Below are positions 3,398-43,107 of a stretch of 64,000 nucleotides of DNA, one piece after another. The translations under genes were made by a program, and so were the position numbers. Source of the stretch: Branchiostoma floridae. Lineage: Eukaryota; Chordata; Leptocardii; Amphioxiformes; Branchiostomatidae. Numbering within the stretch: the stretch's first letter is position 1; every line of letters starts with the position of its first letter. The DNA is taken from contig NC_049986.1 of NCBI RefSeq assembly GCF_000003815.2, positions 11,858,706-11,922,705 on the forward strand, in the 5' to 3' direction. Under the pieces are notes generated by a model. It saw nothing but the letters and a program-made list of their open reading frames with translations. It was not told where the DNA came from and did not search any database.

Positions 3398-6300
3398 TTA
3401 TTCTGCAACAAATAAGTAACGAATACAGAGGATGACTTCTTCTTCTAATCTGCAAGTTTCTGCAAGTTTCTTCTGCGGTTCCTTTACTCTCTCGTCACAG
3501 TTGATCATTCGTTGCGTCTTCAATGCTAGCCGGGACATGGTGCGCTCTCTCTTTGTTGGACCTCCTTGTCGCGGAGTGTCCTGCCGATTGATGGACTGAT
3601 TACTCGACCGTCCAACTGATTCGGCTTCTGCCATAGCCAAGTCATTAAAGAGTCGTCGTTTAGCTTCACGGTCTGCTGTCTTCATCATCTTCTTGGCGTC
3701 ATACCTTTTCTCTAACTCCGCCTTGTACAGCTTTGTCCGCCTTGCATGTCGCAACCGCGAACACTCCTCTGCATGGTGTGCTCGGAGATTTGGTCGCGAT
3801 TTCTTAATCTTCTTCTTATTGCGAATCTTGGTACGCTGTCGCGACAGGTGTTCCTCATCCAAGTCCAATGTTATGTCATCCTCGTCCCCACTGTCTGAAT
3901 CCATGGGGACAAAATAAGTGTTAGCAAGGAGGTTGCAACCTGTTAGCGAACGGTAGAGACAAAGTGCATCATGTGTCATAGAAAGTAGAAATTTCTCATT
4001 TAAAGTAGTGATGCTACATCTCGTACACTAGCCAATGTTTTACACTTAATTTGTGTATCATAAAAATCCTTTCTTGTGAGTAAATTTAAAGAAGAATCAC
4101 ACAAAGTATGATCGCAAGCCAATGTCTGTCTCGAAATAAGTTTGCGTCCAGGGATAGAAGAAAATAAACATACAGAACTGGAGCAGCAAATTTCTGTGTA
4201 CATCACGGCCTGATATATATGTAATTTGACGTTGCGTAGTTTGCTCCAAACCAAATATAAGAACTCGGGCAATTAAAGCCCCCATGCAACGGCCTATGCG
4301 ACTTTTGAGAAATAAATGAGGCTAACCATGTGTAACACGGAAATAAAGTCCTTTTTGACGAAGCGCCACCTATTTTGCACGCACAAAGCAAAAACTGCAC
4401 CTCCGGCTCACATTTACCGGAAGTGACGTCACACGGGGCATTCCCGGGATGGGATGGAACAACATTTTGCAGACAATATTTGTCACTGCGCTACCTTTTA
4501 CTTTCTCCCCGTCGGTAAATTCCGTCATGATGTAATTTTGACCGTAACGGTGAAACGTAGTGTAACTTTTGGTCTTAGTACGTCTGCCTGAGACTGTAAA
4601 AGGCGACTGAGACCTCGCTTTTTTTTTAATATTGAAGTTCGGCAGAGGTCAAACACAAAGTTTGAGCGCAGCGTTGTAGGTACCTATTCATGCCTCTGTG
4701 GGGAGCATTTTTCGGAAAACCTGTTTTATGGTGGCCGCAACGGTCAGTAAGGAGATGGCAGGTGGGCTCAGCTACAGCCGACGACCCTCCCAGATAATTT
4801 TGAGGCCAGGCCGAGCTCGGCGGTGGATGTTTGTGGAAGCTTGTGGAAGCGGAAAGCTGGCGTCGTCTGCTAACCCGAACAAGTTCAGTCGCTGTTCAGA
4901 AACTGAACAAGCAACGGGTAGGTGAAATCTTCCGACAAAATAATTCAGGGCTTTGGGAAAATCTAAGAATATATGAAATAAGATATGGAAGTGTGTTGTT
5001 CGTTTTGACGAACGTGTTACTTTTATAAGCCTTTTATGTTTACGTAATTAAGGGGAGGGGGGCACCGGCAAAAGACATAAATTTTGTTGCGTTAGATCTA
5101 AGTGCGGACTTAGATTAATTACTAATTAATAAGGAATGGCTTCTATTGTCATCATATTTTCTGTTTTTCCAACTGTTACATATGGACTTAAGCTATGACC
5201 TGTTGCCTGTCAATTTTGTTCTCGTAGCTGCAAGTACACAGGTGTAACGTTACTTTCCCAAGTTACAGAATATAAATTACATTGCAATATATGAGTTGAA
5301 GAGGTCATCAAGTTACGATTAAGTATTATTTGTTTTGTTTTATGTGACAAAGTGATTTTGTAACCGCAATATAACAAAATATAAAATTGCAATAAAATGA
5401 CTATCACCAACTTATTCTTCAGGGGAATGAATCACAAATAGGGGCAGGGGACACTGGTGAAATGTTTGTGAACTTCACACATCAACATCTACATTTTCTA
5501 GTAAAATTGTTATCTTTTTGTTAGCCAACATAATTCATTTATTTATTCTTTATTTCTGGCACTAATAGGCCAATAGCGAGAGCAGAATGAACAATAAACA
5601 ACAGATACATAAAAAAATATGCATGATATTCATGTTATTAATTTTGTAAGGTCAGATGTATAATTGATCATCATTTTGCATCAAGGTATTTCAAAGTAGT
5701 ACTGCACTGTAAGAAGTATGATATACAGTGAACTCTAAGATTACATACCATTCTTTCCTCTTGATGACTTTGTGACAAATGTTTGTTTCATAACACTGTT
5801 AAAATTCCCTAGTACCTTTGCCTCAAACATTTCTAAAGGCAGCAGTTTAAAAAGCCTCACCAACAAATTGTACTGTTATACTAAATGATAAGTATTTTGC
5901 TTATCTTTTCACTTCTGTACTACAGGAACTCAGACTGCCCTTGTGATAATGAACATGGGGGTTTACTGTAAATGTTTTTAAGTTCGCGGGGATTTAATTT
6001 CGCCCATCAGGCGTCGCCAAAATGAAGAATCTATTGTACGGCATAATATATTCTGTGTTTTCTTCAGTCATTTCTTCAACCTTCCTGACCACTTACATGT
6101 AGATTTCAGAATAAAGGCAACTCTTTTTGGTCAAACTTTTTTTCATTCGCACGCTCGCATCAGTTTTTGGATTCCCAGAGGATGTCATCCATATAATCAA
6201 ATCAACATGGCCTTAGTTCAAAAAAGTTTTTCAGTCCATTTAGACCAAATGTTTTCCTCTTACTAGTGAATCAATGTGATAGAGGGGTGCCATGACATTT

Positions 6301-7354
6301 GTTCACTAGTTGACATAAATTTATTCCTCTTAATTACTAGTGAATTAATGTGGTGCTATCACATTTTTTCACTAGTAGACACATACTTCATACTATAGTG
6401 AAGTAATGTGATAACCCTGACGCTCCTCCTAGTGAAAATGTGATATCACCCATATCACATTATTCACTAGTAAGAGGAATGCTTTATGTCTACTAGTGAA
6501 TGAATGAGATAGCACCCCTCTATCACATTTGTCACTAGTAAAATAGACTATGAATAAGTTATCACAACTTTTCCAACTATCACTTTTTCTGTCCTGAACT
6601 ACTATTCATAACTGAATAAATGTGATGAATACTCAGGCCATTAGTAGCATCATGTCTCATTGAAAGTGAAAGTAAAGTGTCTCATTTAAAGTAGTGATGC
6701 TACAGTCGTGCGCTAGCCAACGTTTTCCACTTACTAAGTAATTTGTGCATCATAAAAATCCTTTCTCGTGAGTAAATTTAAAGAAAAAGAATCACTAACG
6801 TTATTGGAACTTTACCATAGTAACCGACGGCCGTGTTTCTATTACAGCAACTACATACATGTATTGTGCATATCATACACCATTTGCCACAGTGACTTAC
6901 CAGATGCAGTACTAGGACCATAACCGTATCGTCGTAGTACTGCTTCCTGCCTCCTTAAGAAATAATGGCTGTCTCTCACACGCACTTGAACTGTTTCCCC
7001 CTCACTCGTTGTTGTAAACTTCATACTCAGCCAATCCATGTGAAATAGCTCTAGAGGGTAAAGTGTGACCTTGACAGAAGAGAGAAATCCGACCTTTTGC
7101 AATGTCCTGTAAATGTAGAGACGCCTATTTCCCGAAAGTGCAAAGAACTTGCCCTCCACACGCACCACATCGAACGTTACTATTCTCTCCACATCGATGA
7201 CACCACGCAAAATTCCCTCGAGCGCCTTCAGGATAGGTATCTTACCGCCCCCATGAGGACTAACATGAACAAGGCTGCTGATGCTGTCCTGGCTGAAATA
7301 TATCTCACTGGGAGCAAGTCTTATGCTCTGCGGAAGTAAGTCAGATTCAGGCAT
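3398..7354 (-). CDS. ParB/sulfiredoxin-fold-like protein, two exons
   Basis: Exon 1 is 6901-7354 and exon 2 is 3398-3939; both are phase 1 at the junction (GCATCTG/GTAAGT to CTAACAG/GTTGC), giving 331 residues. Residues 1-150 carry SQDSI at 21-25 and NRRLY at 76-80, with a strand-helix pattern between them. This resembles the ParB/Srx-like fold (ParB nuclease or CTPase, sulfiredoxin) seen in scattered eukaryotic uncharacterised proteins. Exon 2 adds an acidic stretch (SDSGDEDD), then a long, highly basic, helical tail rich in K and R (for example RNKKKIKKSR) that could bind nucleic acid or enter the nucleus. I do not recognise a named orthologue. The gene lies between two copies of the spacer repeat. 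Gene structure is well supported by phase; the fold call is by motif only, and the function is unknown. Confidence 0.6.
3963..4100 (+). repeat. Direct intronic repeat, copy 1 (partner 6646-6795)
   Basis: This segment, just upstream of the ParB-like exon 2 acceptor, matches 6646-6795 near the start of the same intron. Shared runs include CTCATTTAAAGTAGTGATGC and a stretch ending TGTGAGTAAATTTAAAGAA. The two copies bracket about 2.5 kb of the intron, which suggests an internal duplication. Confidence 0.75.
4390..4920 (+). other. CRE-containing GC-rich patch with a possible orphan first exon
   Basis: Inside the intron of the ParB-like gene, a GC-rich patch starts with GTGACGTCAC (a full CRE, near 4422-4431). 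A plus-strand open frame from the ATG at 4755 reads to a good donor (GCAACGG/GTAGGTG, about 4918). No homology is recognisable and no following exon is apparent. It could be an intronic promoter, a non-coding RNA start or chance. Confidence 0.25.
6040..6215 (+). repeat. Interspersed repeat, copy 1 (partner 31430-31610)
   Basis: The end of this segment (ATATAATCAAATCAACATGG followed by CCTTAG) recurs at 31570-31600. The preceding 130 bases also align, including runs like TTCAACCTTCCTGAC and AAAGGCAACT. This is a dispersed element of unknown class present twice, once in the ParB-like intron and once in an intron of the GST-fold gene. Confidence 0.65.
6253..6545. repeat. Composite palindromic repeat built on CACTAGTGAAT / TGTGATA
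   Basis: About nine copies of a CTAGTGAA core, in both orientations, alternate with ATGTGATA or TATCACAT. The left part (TCCTCTTACTAGTGAATC at about 6255) returns inverted near 6462-6480. A second, shifted copy of the same arms follows to 6545. It could fold into long nested hairpins. It looks like a MITE inserted into or duplicated within itself, or a hairpin satellite; no ORF is present. Confidence 0.7.
6646..6795 (+). repeat. Direct intronic repeat, copy 2
   Basis: Partner of 3963-4100. It begins about 105 bases inside the intron from the ParB-like exon 1 donor (6900). Confidence 0.75.
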
Positions 7355-28724: not shown

Positions 28725-29567
28725 GGACAGCGCCTTGTTGAAAGCTTAATTTTAACGGAATATGCAGTTTATGACGTATCCATGATCAACTACCGAGAAT
28801 ACGGCAACGAGCAGTTACTCAAGCAACCGGATATGATTTTGGAAACAGGTCAGAGACCGTCAGGCGTTTCATATAGCATCCACTTTCTTTCGTCAATGCA
28901 TATGGCACTGAGCAAGTTTTTAGCCAAAAAGTATAAACTCCTATGCAATAGAGGTGAAGAGAAATTTGAACAATAAGAGAATTGACAAAGGTCATTTTAA
29001 CCTCTCCTACAAAAGTCTGTAGGAATGTAGAATGAATGAATTAATGAATAAACTTTATTGCTCAAGAATCGCACAAGGTACAATGTATGGCAACCATTAA
29101 CAACTACTAGCTAGAACGTTATATAAACAATAGTACTACGAGGCTACATACAGAACAGCAAAATTTTATCGATAACAATACAGTCATGTATGAGTGATCT
29201 GGTCCCGCATTTGGAATAAATTGACCGGTAACTACGTAGACAGATATATGAGTTGAACATGATACCAGTATATGGAAAATATCGTTCTGTGCACCAGTAA
29301 GGGAGATGCGCGTTTTGGTTCTCTCTCAATGCTTCTCTCTCTCAAGTTACTGTAGGTAGGGTGGAATCAGGCGGATCATAACAAAGTGGTATTCTAGGTC
29401 ATTTAGTAGCGAGTCATCTGTGCCTGACGATCGACAGGTGCACGTGCTTTACACTAGTCCATAGTCCAGACTGTTTACACATAGGTACAAACGCTAAATC
29501 ATGAACCAATAGGCCGTCGACCTTTGCTCCATCTACGGTTCATGCTGATGACGTCGGTAGTCAGAAA
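28725..29567 (+). repeat. Segmental duplication, copy 1 (partner 36741-37888)
   Basis: Two blocks match the later copy in the same direction. 28725-28982 matches 36741-36808 plus 37260-37480 and holds CATGATCAACTACCGAGAA. 29383-29567 matches 37728-37888 and holds GCGAGTCATCT and TTCATGCTGATGACGTC. Between the blocks (about 29005-29350) sits a dispersed-repeat tail (CTTTATTGCTCAAGAATCGC...). An open frame at 28668-28976 covers the first block but is broken in the other copy. The remainder to 30699 shows nothing recognisable. Confidence 0.75.
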
Positions 29568-30699
29568 TGGTTAGTCCTACTCTAATTGATATATTGCTTA
29601 AATTTGTCACATATACTGAACATGTTCCAACATTTTCATAATGTCTGTAAACTTAACATGTCACGTCGATGAAGTTCAGACATGTCAGCTTCTGTAGAAA
29701 TGGATGGTAACAATAAGAAATATGTTGCATTATATAGTTTAAAAATTAGCATCAGTTTGATAACTGTAATATCTTAATCAGCGCACAGTATGAAGATAAA
29801 ATCGTTGAAGTCTAAACATATGTTAAGTTACTTGAAAGAAATACTCCACAATACTATGAATTCTAGAGAAATCAAATGGAATAAGTGTACTTTTGTAATG
29901 ATCACAATGTTTGAAAAAAGACCAATAAACATGTGAATGTTATATTGTCAATTTTGTATTGTCAATTTTGGTTTTAACATTATGTTTCATTTTAACTTTG
30001 TATGTTTCTCGGCATTTTCCTCATACATACTGTCAGGTAAATTTTATCATTATAAATTGTGAAACAATTGTTAACAGTCATCATTGGTTTCAGTGCATAT
30101 GCGTTTATTGCATGTTACCTTGAATCAGCACAGCATTTGACTTAGAAATGCTTTGGCTTTTCATGCAAGACAGCATTGAGAAATTACTAAGTAAGTAAAA
30201 ACATTCGTAGTATCTGTTGCTTACTCTGTCCGGTTTAGAACATATGGAACACTTCAGTTTGCTGTATGTCTTGTCATAAAGACACTGAAATAATTTTTAC
30301 ATTTTGAGTCAATAGGTCCAGTTATTTAAAAAGACCATTGTTATTATAGCACACAGTTCTTTCTGTGAAAGCACTGATGATCAATAATTATTAGCAAAAA
30401 CATTTCAAATTACATACGAAATGTGTTGAAGAAGGTTAGACATCCAGGTCGTAACATTCGTGAGATACATGTCACAGTATACACTCAGATAACTCAAGCA
30501 AATAGATTTGTTAGCTAACAGCCCTGCCTAACTGCCTGAGTGCTAAGTAGACCAGGGACTGGCCCATTGCTCCTCTCCATTTGTAAACAGATATCATTAT
30601 ATGAAATTTGCACTGATAGCAAAATATAGTATTGAAATTTGTATTTCTGAATAATACATTGTTCAGAATTACTCTGTTCTAAATCCATGTGTGAACAGT

Positions 30700-33600
30700 T
30701 TATAGTTTTGACTTTGCAGGCTCTGCCCTTCTCACCCTAACATCCATCCTCTCCACCCTACACCCTGTCAGGTCTGCCTGTACCAGCTCCTGTCCCCCAG
30801 GATATTCCTCCAAGAATCTGTCAATCATCCTCTGTTGCCCTGGTGACAGGCTGTGGTAGTAGTCTGTGATTCGCTGCAGCATCCAGATCGGGTAGGTGTA
30901 GACACCTCGCTGACTGGTGACGTCACCCAGTCTGAAGTCATGGAGACCAATGATGCGCGGGAGAACGTCGACGTCTGGATTATCCTGCATTAGAATTGGG
31001 TACAATGTGTGTCACATCATGAATCACATTTCCTAGCTATCCCATCAAATCTTTTCATACAACACAATGACACAGTCATATCATAAATAGTGCCACCCTT
31101 CCCGTCATACACCGCAAAACAAAATGGCGGCGCCTATACATGCCAGTGAAAGCAGTACAGGTTTTGCTATTGCAAGCCTGTAATCAAAACTTCACCAATG
31201 AAATATTTTGGAGCCAATGTTATTCTCACATTTGAAAAGTAAGGCCAATTTTTGTTACTGCACTAATTTTCGGCCATTTTTATAAAGAAAAAAAGTTTTC
31301 AACCACGCATGCGCGTACAAAGCAGCTGCAAATTCAGCTGTAGATTGCAAATGATATCAGAAAACGCATACTAATGTCATAGAATTCAAACTAAAGGTAA
31401 ATTCCAAAGAAGTAGATGTGAAAGAAAAAAGAAGAATCTATTGTTCAGTGTACCATACTCAGTGTGTTCAGTCATTTGTTCGACCTTCCTGACTAATTGG
31501 ATTTCATAATGAAGGCAACTTCTTTTTTATTTGCATGCTCGCACCAGTTTTTTGATTCACAGTGGATGCCATCCATATTATCAAATCAACATGGCCTTAG
31601 AGCTAATGGAAAGGCAAAGATTCACAGCACAATTATTACAGCTTGATTTTACATAGGGGACTCGGCTATATATGTGCAAACTGTTGTTTACCATGAAAGG
31701 CAATAAAATTACGCACCTTCATGTACTGGCTGACTCTCTTAACAGTGTCCAGTAGAACAGGCACCTGCTCTCGGAAAACCCTGTGCAATATTGGCTGGAG
31801 GGTCTCTGGGATTTCATCCCCCGGTAGGAGTCCCTGTTTGTCAGGAGGTACAGACTTCTTCACAGCCTTTCCGTCTATCACATCATGGGAAGGGCTGAGG
31901 ACAGCACCATTCATCCTCTCTATGTAGCTGGCTACCAGGGGAGCCTGGCACTTCATCAGGTAACCTGGCAGTGAACAAAATGATGGATCAAAACAGGTCA
32001 ATGGGACACTTGAGACTCAGTAAGGAGTACTGTCTTATAACACAGAAAAAGCACTCAACATTCATGTACTACTCACCTGTACAGGTATGTCAATACTTGG
32101 GACACCTGGGACAGAGTTGCCTTTAATACAGGTGTGTCAACATTACCTGGAACAGAGTTGCCTTACAAGTGTGTCAACACTACTCACCTGGGACAGGGTC
32201 CCTGTACAAGTGTGTTGACACTACTCACCTGGAAAAGAATTGCCTTACAGGTGTGTCAACATTACTCTACCTGGAACAGAGTTGCCTTACATGTGTGTCA
32301 CACTGCTCACCTGGGACAGGGTCCCTGTACAAGTGTGTCACAACACTACTCACCTGGGACAGGGTCCCTGTACAAGTATGTTAACACTACTCACCTGGAA
32401 CAGAGTTGCATTTAACAAGTGTGTCAACATTACTCACCTGGGACAGGGTCCCTGTACAAGTGTGTCAACATCACTCATATGGCACAGGGTCACTGTACAA
32501 GTGTGTCAACATCACTCATATGGGACAGGGTTCCTGTACAAGTGTGTCAACATCTGACTCATATGGGACACTCATTTGGTCCCTGTACAAGTGTGTCAAC
32601 ACTACTCACCTGGGACAGGGTCCCTGTACAGGTGTGTCAACACTTCTCATATGGAACAGGGTCCCTGTACAAGTGTGTCAACATTACTCACCTGGGACAG
32701 GGTCCTTGTACATATGTGCGTCAACACTACTCACCTGGGACAGGGTCCCTGTACAGCATTGCATACAGAAGCCCAAAGAAAGCGAAGTCTGCCACACATG
32801 GCTGGTACCCCAGCAGGTAGGGGTACTTGTTCAGGTGCTGCTGGAAATCTTCTAGAAACTCTTGGTAAGACCGCTCCACTTCTCCGATGGTGTTTTCATT
32901 GATGCCCTGGAAGGGGAAGGAGTTCTACACAAACAAAGTCACAGGGTCAGTATTATGTGTAAGAAAAATAAACCCAGTGGTTGGTACAAATCTGATAGAG
33001 AATCACTTGCTACATTTGTGGAAGTGTCATTCATAAATGGCAGGAATTACTATTGGAATGTGTGTGTGTTTTGACAGATAATTATGATGCAAAAATGGTA
33101 ATTTAACTGACTGGTCAGATTAGAAAACCTTTGACATTGTATTCTTCAAGATCTATAAGATTATGTATCATGTCCTTATATAGTATAATCACTAAGCAAG
33201 CAAAATAAATGTATATGAAGCTAAATAACTTACATGTTTAAATATGTTACATTTTTTACAATGAAATAAAATAACTTCACCTTGATCGAACTGTAAAATT
33301 TAAAGTCCTCCAAGTTTTCCATCTGCTCCAGGGGTGAGGTGTGTTCCTTCATAACAAATCCAAAATTCAAGGCTATATACTTCTTGTGCTCGGGTTTTGA
33401 CCACCTAGTAGGGAAATCATTACAGAGTCCAATCAATTTTCGAAATCAAATTCATAAGTATACACAAAGGACTAATAGAAGAAAATGGGGATTCAAAAAT
33501 CAATTTGAAACCATACAAGATGCAGCTTAAAACAGCAACCAGAGAAGCCCTACCAGTTTTAGGTACTGTATCCATGTTAACTGTGTAAAATCTGTTTGAA

Positions 33601-35703
33601 CAAAAGCTATGGAGCTAGAGTTTGGCGACCTCATACCTCCATGAAATATTTAGAGCAAAATGTAAATTTTATGCAAATGACTTACATATTTACATGATTT
33701 ATGCATGGTGATGTTCATAATTGACTATTAATTATTTCCTCATTAATTATGTAAATCAAGTCCTCTTTTGCATAACATGTATATCATTATAAACATCTTT
33801 GCCTAAGCTATCTGCATGCCTAAAATGATGGCATTCTGTCATTCCTTTCTGTAGTTATCCTCTTTGGAATGTCTTGACAAAAATACCCCTGCAGTTCTTA
33901 AAACAAATGTTAGGGAGCTGAAACGCTAAAAGCTATTTGACATTCAAATGTCAAGACCATAGCATGTCCGGGACAAGAGATACATTGAAAAAACTGCTAT
34001 GATAGAATAGTCTCATCAATTTTATGCAAATGAACTCCTATTTTGCGTAGTTAGTATTATATTTAGTGCAACATTGTCTAAGGTACCTACATACCAAAAC
34101 TCATGAAAATCCATTGTTTTCTTCTTGAGTTATCCTCTTCAAAATTCTTTTGGCAAAATGCCCCTGCTATCCCAAAACTAGCCGCTAGGAGGCCCAAACT
34201 TATGTCACTTCTTCCCAAGCACAAGAGCTAGCAAGACTGGAAGTTGCGCTGTAGTACCAAGGGAAGTGGCTAGGGGGCCCAAAATCTAAGCTTTTGTCAT
34301 ACCCTGCCTACCAACATATAAATCAATCCACCTAGCCACTCTTCAGTTATCTTGTTCAAAGACAGACAGAGACACACAGACACACTGGTGAAACAAGAAA
34401 TCTTTTAAGAAAAGCTGTGCATTGCCGCGTATTTTATGACTGAACTGCTGAGAGCGACACCTACAACTTCAGTAGGAAATGCAGCAAAAGGGGATATTGG
34501 AAATTTACCTCATTATCATAATTTATGTCACATGAATTATTGGCACATTAAACAGGTTTTGTAAAACTTTTTGACCAACAATGAATATGCATTATTTTTC
34601 ATTACAAAATAAGTTCCTTCTGATGCAATTTGTGATATATCTTTATATAAACATGGTGAGTTAAAGCGTAGATTTATTACGCTGGACCACATACAGTAAC
34701 ATGCGTCTAGAAGAGAGTTTTAATACTCGCCTGGAATGTACCATTGTCTAACTAAGCAATGAAACTCGGCAAGGAAAGAAGGGCCTTTGGAAGGGGCTTT
34801 GGAAGGGCTGGGTTAAAAGGGAAAAGGAAGGGCTGGGTTAAAAGGTCCGTCCATGGATCCATGGAAGAAAGCTGGCATAAGGCATTGCCGCTGGCGCGGC
34901 AATGCAAAAATAACCTCCATGAAATTTCATGGAGGTAACAATCACATCAAGTGAGGAGACGAACAAGAAACACTGTTGAAAACATAACCATTGGCAAAAT
35001 AATGTTCACGAACAGGACTGTTTACCTGTAGTGCATGGCAGGTATCGTCAACCACTCATCCGCAAACAACTCCAACAGTAGAGACACCAGCGTCTGCTTG
35101 GGTGTGGGAGGTACCACTGGGGGATAGGGGTGTTCCTGTTCCAGGTACTCTATGATGGCGGTAGAGTCTTGAACCACCTTGTCCTCAGGGGTGATGATCA
35201 CAGGAACCACACTCAAACCAACCCGGGGGATTATAATTTCCCTGTGGACCTATGACATCACTTTATGATTATTAAAAGAATATTGAGGAAATATGGAAAT
35301 GTTGTTTGATGTTAGAACAATGATTTACTATTATGATATCTTTTGAATGCAATAAATCTAGTCTTCAGATTACAATGGATTAACTTATTGCTATAAAATG
35401 TATCTTATGAACAATACAATATAAACTGGGCAAAACAATTAACGTTAACATCAAATATTTACGAAATTGAACATACTGTATATCGTTGTATGTATCATAA
35501 TATAATAATGTTTTGGCGGAATGTAAGTATCACACGACGCTATGTCGTCTTAAAATCTCTAATAATTGATCTTGCAGTACCTGAAATGATGGTATAACCG
35601 TCTCATATGGGATGTTTTTGTAGCGTAAGTAGGGCCGGATTTTCATAGAATAGGGGGAAATCTCTTGTGCAAAAAACTGGTACACCTTCTTCCGGGACGC
35701 CAT
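30700..35703 (-). CDS. Glutathione-S-transferase-fold protein, six coding exons
   Basis: Coding exons: 35581-35703, 35026-35249, 33281-33404, 32735-32924, 31717-31964, 30700-30984; all junctions are in phase, giving 397 residues. The N-terminal half is a thioredoxin-like GST-N domain: SPYSMKIRPYL at 16-26 (serine where a redox cysteine can lie), cis-Pro loop VVPVII at 55-60 and QDSTAIIEYLE at 68-78. A helical GST-C-like part follows, with YPYLLGYQPCVADFAFFGLL as its core motif. The extended C-terminus (LPRIIGLHDF, YPIWMLQRI) is typical of long, uncharacterised GST-like proteins; I do not assign a named gene. The start ATG lies 21 bases after an acceptor (TTTTTCAG at 35732-35725), so an upstream non-coding exon is likely. 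Intron 4 contains the 32070-32735 minisatellite. Glutathione conjugation is plausible from the fold but not shown. Confidence 0.88.
31430..31610 (+). repeat. Interspersed repeat, copy 2
   Basis: Partner of 6040-6215, lying in the last intron of the GST-fold gene. It ends with CAAATCAACATGGCCTTAG like the first copy. Confidence 0.65.
32070..32735 (-). repeat. Minisatellite derived from an exon-intron junction
   Basis: About 16 tandem units of 39-47 bases, mostly about 42. On the minus strand each resembles the last bases of GST-fold exon 4, its donor and early intron: TGTACAGGGACCCTGTCCCA, then G/GTGAGTAGTGTTGACAC. The terminal unit runs into the real exon end at 32735. Around half the units keep CAG/GTGAG; others carry CATATGAG and have lost the GT. 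Unit length near a multiple of three explains the long repetitive plus-strand frames here, which I do not regard as genes. Confidence 0.9.
33595..34945. mobile_element. Long interspersed repeat with CCTCCATGAAAT ends
   Basis: This segment in the second intron of the GST-fold gene starts near GGCGACCTCATACCTCCATG and ends with CCTCCATGAAATTTCATGGA followed by GG. Inside it has repeated ATTTATGCAAATGA phrases and a GACAGACAGAGACACACAGA run. A shorter relative lies at 60865-61085 in CCDC180. No transposase or reverse transcriptase frame is visible, so it is probably a non-autonomous element of unknown class. Confidence 0.55.
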
Positions 35704-36011
35704 TCCTGAACCTGGTGTAGGTACCTGAAAAATTGTGAATGTAGCAGACAATAATAATTATCGAAAATGATCGAAAATGTAATGTATACATTGAGCGGAG
35801 TAGAGAGGCAAGAAATTCTTAGTACAAAGATCAAGTCGTTCTCTCTGTCTGTAACGTTAACGTTACACTTACAGCTGTATTTGTTGTTCTAGTGGGCAGT
35901 TTTGTCAGTGCCCAAATAAATCAATGTAGACTTAACGACAGTTACGTACGTACGTGTACGACGACCAACCTTCTGGGCAGTACGGTGGTAATAAGACGTA
36001 AATAAGGTCGG

Positions 36012-36360
36012 GAGAGCTCCGTATAGCTTGACAGGTTGGAGAAGGGTAGTAACAAGCTGAAAGTTTGCTTCCGCACATGACAGGTAAGAAGGGTCAGTGA
36101 CCGCTCGGGCAGCTGGAAATGCACATGGTTGTTTCTTAGTTTAATAACAAGTGTGTGGTTGCCAGAGTCTACATCTGATCATACAAGGACGCTCCGTGTA
36201 GATTGATAGGGTGGAGAATGAAGGTTTGCTTCCGCACCGTCAGTATGAGAAGGGTCAGTGACCGCTCGGGCAGCTGGATCATACCGAGAGAGTTGATCAT
36301 TACATGCGCGTGGTTGTTCCTTTATTAACAAGTGCATGGTTGCCAGAGTCTACCTCTGAC
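36012..36360. repeat. Tandem duplication of about 170 bases upstream of the GST-fold gene
   Basis: 36012-36178 and 36187-36360 align, sharing AAGGGTCAGTGACCGCTCGG followed by GCAGCTGGA, and later GGTTGCCAGAGTCTAC. The pair lies 300-650 bases upstream of the coding start and may hold duplicated promoter or first-exon sequence of the GST-fold gene. A donor-like AGAAG/GTTGG occurs near 35970 on the minus strand. Confidence 0.7.
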
Positions 36361-36825
36361 AAAGGACACTACAATAATGTCCTTGCTCTGACTCAGTGAA
36401 CCTTTGTGCCATTGTATCTTATAGATGATTAGCTGGTAGTATGCTTACGAACACTGGTGTGCAGACAGGTGCAACTACTAGTATACTGTAGGACATGCTC
36501 CTGTAGATCACGAATTGATGCACTGGTGTAGTAAATCTGGAGCAGCATTTTCAGCACGAAGGACAGGGAAACTCTTCTACATTTCTTATGTCTGATGACT
36601 GTAACAATTTACCATACTTAACAAGCATTTGAGATGAGAAATGTTCATCGGTTGAAGATTTATCACATCAATGTTGTCATGTCTTAAAAAGCTCATCATA
36701 TGGTCTCAATGGAATGTCAGCTTATGTTTTGTACCACGGGGCCGCAGAGCATTGCCTAAAGCTTAAATTTAACGGAATAGGAAATGCAGTTTATAACGTA
36801 TCATCACATAGCCAGGCGGCGCGGA

Positions 36826-43042: not shown

Positions 43043-43107
<65 letters not shown>

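Follow-up and report, generated by a model that had tools for sequence, protein, structure and literature searches.

The intron analysed here opens with a row of near copies of the end of its own preceding exon together with the 5' splice site, which raises the questions of which donor is the true one, where the row came from, and how long it has persisted. The window, by which we mean the whole stretch of DNA that was analysed, comprises 64,000 nucleotides of the Branchiostoma floridae genome (C8:11858706-11922705). This species is given 19 chromosomes in the accessible text of PMC12373286, and the genome that we searched consisted of 513,431,437 bases in 431 contigs. The host gene is GST-like. 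Two of its exons at the N-terminal end match the Pfam family GST_N_3 (E 5.6e-5 and 8.5e-7), and a match to GST_C_3 was obtained when the exons flanking the array were joined (E 3.9e-5). One exon, 33255-33406, was recognised only by blastn against a paralog on C8, and is open in both genes in one frame. The other Pfam families in the window (GH47, GT29, proteasome PSMB and DUF4455) fit an animal. A perfect TA dinucleotide run of 30 copies is also present in the window at 43045-43104.

A sequence-only reading of this DNA had described the start of the intron as about 16 tandem units, each consisting of the exon end and the donor. This was borne out by two procedures. TRF identified the array at 32127-32755 with a period of 41, 15.1 copies and 81% matches, and wrap-around alignment resolved 16 full units (39-49 nt, ~41), followed by a truncated 17th ending near 32066. 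The first unit, half of which is exon, reads TGTACAGGGACCCTGTCCCAG and then GTGAGTAGTGTTGACGCACA; the last 21 nt of the exon (32735-32755), which encode part of YRDPVPG, are the start of this unit. The test set beforehand was whether the units match the final bases of the exon beyond chance. The 21-nt exon end recurs nine times downstream in the array with five or fewer mismatches, five of the nine being perfect, and neither 300 mononucleotide shuffles of the array nor the remainder of the window, searched on both strands, gave a match. Windows of 21 nt taken deeper inside the exon did not recur in the array. This supports derivation of the array from the exon end and the donor. The description needs correcting for w09, w12, w13, w15 and w16, a diverged subfamily with approximately TGTAAGGCAACTCTGTTCCAG as its exon part; these five are copies by descent, not close copies. 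Near-identical units sit beside diverged ones, which suggests turnover of the array.

The exon end is partly palindromic, and TGTAC is found at both ends of the unit. DNA hairpins in the unit were rejected, as three of the 16 units were folded as DNA and none of the three folded better than shuffles. To look for other exon-edge arrays in the window, we listed its 243 donor-like sites (at least seven of nine positions). A near copy within 1 kb was present for 22 of them, and 21 of these lie inside the array. The one pair outside, at 36151 on the plus strand, is a donor-like site with 30 bases recopied 181 bases away at 5 mismatches, and it was the only such pair that the 243 sites gave outside the array.

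We then considered which donor is authentic. The sequence-only reading had placed it in the exon-side terminal unit. In intron-less bacterial relatives (one plasmid match and seven genome loci), the junction LYRDPVPG/YLMK is gapless in 8/8, and RDP is kept in 7/8. Two paralogs carry an intron at the same position. As the junction is gapless in all eight relatives, use of the exon-side donor yields the protein that is expected, and the repeats derive from the exon end, an old piece of coding sequence, and not the reverse. The exon-proximal donor, predicted from protein colinearity, is supported as the true donor. Beyond it stand 16 copies (w02-w17), among which nine retain CAG/GTGAG, in agreement with the earlier estimate of roughly half, three have a weaker CAG/GT, and four read CATATG and have lost the GT, a loss that had likewise been noticed. 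The decoy at 32310 reads CAGGTGAGC, and the other eight of the nine are CAGGTGAGT, identical to the true 9-mer. Donor strength was taken as the duplex energy with the 5' end of U1. By this measure, the true donor was equalled by 8 of the 94 further GT sites that were scored within the intron and by none of the 7865 GT sites elsewhere in the window (both strands). The line of decoys said to stand behind a real donor is therefore present, as eight 9-mers equal in strength to the true site. As also predicted, a TAG follows soon after the junction on read-through, as the third codon in frame (G/GT GAG TAG; first base 32729). The features are collected in Table 1.

Table 1. Positions of the host gene, its exons and the elements of the array in the window. 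Exon ends of the host gene are approximate except for the two flanking the array.
Feature	Position	Strand	Basis or remark
Host gene, GST-like	30699..35691	-	Pfam on exon translations and blocks aligning with the C8 paralog; span approximate
Recognised exons of the host gene	35578-35691, 35024-35241, 33255-33406, 32735-32924, 31719-31964, 30699-30987	-	
Exon before the array	32735..32924	-	Sequence; tail matches array; junction gapless against bacterial relatives
Intron with the array	31965..32734	-	770 nt, phase 1, GTGAGT...CAG
Intronic part of the minisatellite	32066..32734	-	Rest of unit 1, units 2-16 and truncated unit 17; TRF and wrap-around alignment
Predicted true 5' splice site, CAG/GTGAGT	32729..32737	-	First intron base 32734; protein colinearity; U1 duplex -11.7 kcal/mol
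Nine decoy donors, CAG/GTGAG	32071..32694	-	First intron bases 32691, 32609, 32437, 32394, 32353, 32310, 32228, 32187, 32076
GT-less units (CATATG) w03, w05, w06, w07	32459..32671	-	w04 among them intact

Concerning the history of the array, we searched the genome for further copies. Matches elsewhere were found only at C8 18.538-18.540 Mb and number at least four, a lower bound because only the best candidates were scored. A protein search identified paralogs in that same region of C8 (L014, 6.6 Mb from the window gene) and at C4 5.985-5.992 Mb. In L014, the intron is at the same position and the exon end is identical to that of the window gene over 22 nt. The gene carries degenerate copies of the unit, two of them at the exon edge beyond the first. 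Within its intron, near 6325-6472, two units form an inverted pair with arms of about 68 bp and hardly any spacer, and an almost perfect copy lies at 6027-6068. This last copy holds CAGGTGAGT (-11.7 kcal/mol), which is stronger than the true donor of L014, CAGGTGAGA (-11.1). The C4 paralog is more distant. Its intron agrees in place and phase, and no array was detected there, the best score past the exon being 22 and shuffles reaching 26. This indicates that the intron predates the array, which arose on the C8 side.

Two other features of L014 were observed. At ~5531-5049 (minus strand), one exon is split by an additional phase-0 intron of about 480 nt; the window gene and the C4 paralog have this exon in one piece. 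AAACAG is read at both edges of the intron, which looks like a gain accompanied by a short duplication; loss from the other two genes would be a less simple alternative. In addition, a second exon-edge repeat is present in L014 at 3760-4211, where a 155-bp segment with the final coding bases of the last exon, the stop codon and the following sequence is repeated in tandem about 2.9 times.

When positions 29500-36500 of the window were compared with L014-L016 by blastn, the exons aligned, and outside the exons the array and one 33-bp match (36247-36278, E 3e-4) did so. Ks between the C8 pair, computed without the exon tail, was 0.53 for the exon before the array and 0.91 for the compared part of the next exon, or about 0.67 together. 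At this Ks, the array is nearly the sole intron sequence that aligns between the two C8 paralogs. The two genes agree in the junction between the intron part and the exon part of the unit, and they have two unit variants in common, a truncated unit and an extra TG. The shared junction and variants favour an array older than the C8 duplication, in a comparison that sees only units that still align, in which both shared variants are simple changes and the unit tree has weak support. Judging from the three genes, the array would have arisen in the C8 lineage once the C4 paralog had split off, at a time that probably predates the C8 duplication.

This comparison raised the possibility that the array is a long-lived, self-renewing minisatellite, which would have been re-seeded repeatedly from the protein-constrained exon-side unit and would have outlasted the rest of the intron. 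Such minisatellite arrays are commonly viewed as appearing and vanishing quickly. We put this reading forward tentatively, as one that is possible rather than probable. If true, coding exon edges would be permanent founders of minisatellites. The persistence of the array deserves a check in sister species.

Two other histories were weighed against common descent of the C8 arrays. The arrays may have grown independently at a slippage-prone exon edge, with the partly palindromic exon end and the TGTAC at the unit ends as the predisposing features. The exon end is identical in both C8 genes, so that the event could recur, and a truncated unit and an extra TG, being simple changes, could also recur. 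Nevertheless, the same junction between intron and exon parts and both variants are found in the two genes, and the folded units did no better than shuffles. We regard independent growth as unlikely. The other history is that the arrays became common through gene conversion or copying between the genes after the duplication, and not through descent. Unit identity between the genes reaches 98% over 42 nt, against a Ks of about 0.67 beside the array. The high identity is, however, in part ascertainment, because only still-aligning units are seen. Conversion of the exon end itself was rejected, as the 22-nt identity is unremarkable in an exon that contains three other identical runs of 22 nt. We consider exchange between the genes quite improbable as the source of the likeness.

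Taking the anatomy and the paralogs together, it is very probable that we are dealing with an intronic minisatellite of the mirage kind, for which we propose an origin by tandem duplication and splicing by exon definition. A 41-nt stretch, consisting of the last 21 nt of the exon and the first 20 nt of the intron, would have been duplicated in tandem, and slippage or unequal exchange would then have led to expansion and partial homogenisation. The first unit is presumably held fixed by the conserved residues that it encodes and the real donor that it contains, and the remaining units, being intron, would be free to drift. Exon definition most likely keeps splicing correct by pairing the short exon with the donor nearest its acceptor. 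Transcripts spliced at a later donor would meet the TAG within three codons, and nonsense-mediated decay or a truncated protein may be the outcome. Exon definition and nonsense-mediated decay are established processes; what is observed here is the stop codon alone.

The sequence-only reading had also raised selection against the decoys, which did not survive the comparison of columns. Among the 15 downstream full units, 17 of the 135 donor-column cells depart from the reference unit (0.126), the corresponding value for the other columns being 0.138, and variation equal to or above that of the donor columns is seen in 24 of the 41 circular nine-column blocks. In the ten type-A units alone, the donor columns do vary more (0.111 versus 0.062), and 8 of the 10 differing donor cells in these units come from the CATATG of four units. 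Three of the four group together in the unit tree, which is weakly supported, and CATATG is read as a single variant spread by turnover of the array. We rejected selection against decoys, as there is no donor-column excess over all 15 units and the type-A contrast is mostly this one shared variant. CATATG had been tentatively attributed to drift or selection; selection is not retained, and spread of one variant by turnover is the reading that we prefer.

A functional role for the decoys was also considered, in which the line would buffer loss of the true donor or would tune output through alternative donors and nonsense-mediated decay. Eight decoys equal the true donor in strength, the stop codon comes at once after the junction, and an array is retained in some form in two paralogs. 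On the other hand, the donor columns display no sign of constraint (0.126 versus 0.138), a decoy cannot rescue the protein because the TAG precedes all of them, the C4 paralog manages without an array, and published mirages are described, in the accessible portions of PMC3087553 and PMC3902484, as not interfering with splicing. We consider such a role very improbable. Hiding of the decoys from U1 by RNA structure is hardly credible and was given no weight: the array with the exon end does fold better than 20/20 dinucleotide shuffles (z -3.29), and the true donor is 0.40 unpaired against 0.11-0.41 for 12 other sites, but 44 of 200 arrays made by shuffling the unit and re-tiling it fold as well as the real one, which attributes the strong fold to repetition itself, and openness equal to that of the true donor is seen at two decoy-type sites.

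Arrays of this class are known from amphioxus. According to the accessible text of PMC3087553, tandem repeats over exon/intron boundaries, termed "mirages", are present in Adh3 and in the globins BflGb6 and BflGb9. Many of their units keep AG/GT, and RT-PCR suggests regular splicing for the globins. Their length is described there as unstable, somatically so at Adh3, and it is proposed that mirages may give rise to new introns. In the portion available of PMC3902484, lancelet PGBD5 is reported to contain imperfect repeats, 60 and 108 bp long, with splice sites inside them. The window gene was not found in what these two accounts make accessible, and we do not claim that the array is unreported. 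In terms of anatomy, the array is a mirage, as judged from its sequence. Tandem units span the exon/intron boundary, the authentic boundary, placed by protein colinearity, is one of the units, and many but not all units keep splice signals (CAG/GTGAG in 9/16, a weaker GT in 3/16, none in 4/16). The class itself is known, and the new part is the paralog comparison and the dating of a mirage.

The locus offers a natural test of splice-site choice, as eight identical 9-mers follow the true donor within about 660 nt and the stop codon after that donor makes each splicing error visible. Intron gain by tandem duplication of segments bearing AG/GT, the Rogers model as described in the accessible part of PMC3087553, for which potato RdRp is a case (PMC4974935, as far as its available text goes), resembles the present array in that splice signals are copied along. 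It differs in that the present intron is older than the array; creation of the intron by duplication was rejected, as an array-free intron of matching place and phase is present in the C4 paralog. The PGBD5 repeats are alike in having imperfect units that include splice sites, and, as far as that account is accessible, their units are far fewer and longer. The closest likeness is to the mirages of Adh3, BflGb6 and BflGb9, which, in the text available, are tandem copies over an exon/intron boundary with splice signals kept in many but not all units; the 41-nt unit also falls within the 10-72 bp quoted there for Adh3. The present array differs from them in lying in another gene and in having a 41-nt unit present about 16 times at a 5' splice site. 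It also adds one paralog with a decayed array and one without any. Three paralogs with a long array, a decayed array and none provide a way to date a mirage that is lacking in the earlier cases as far as their accessible accounts extend, and they make it possible to examine whether a minisatellite can be founded again and again from the edge of a coding exon.
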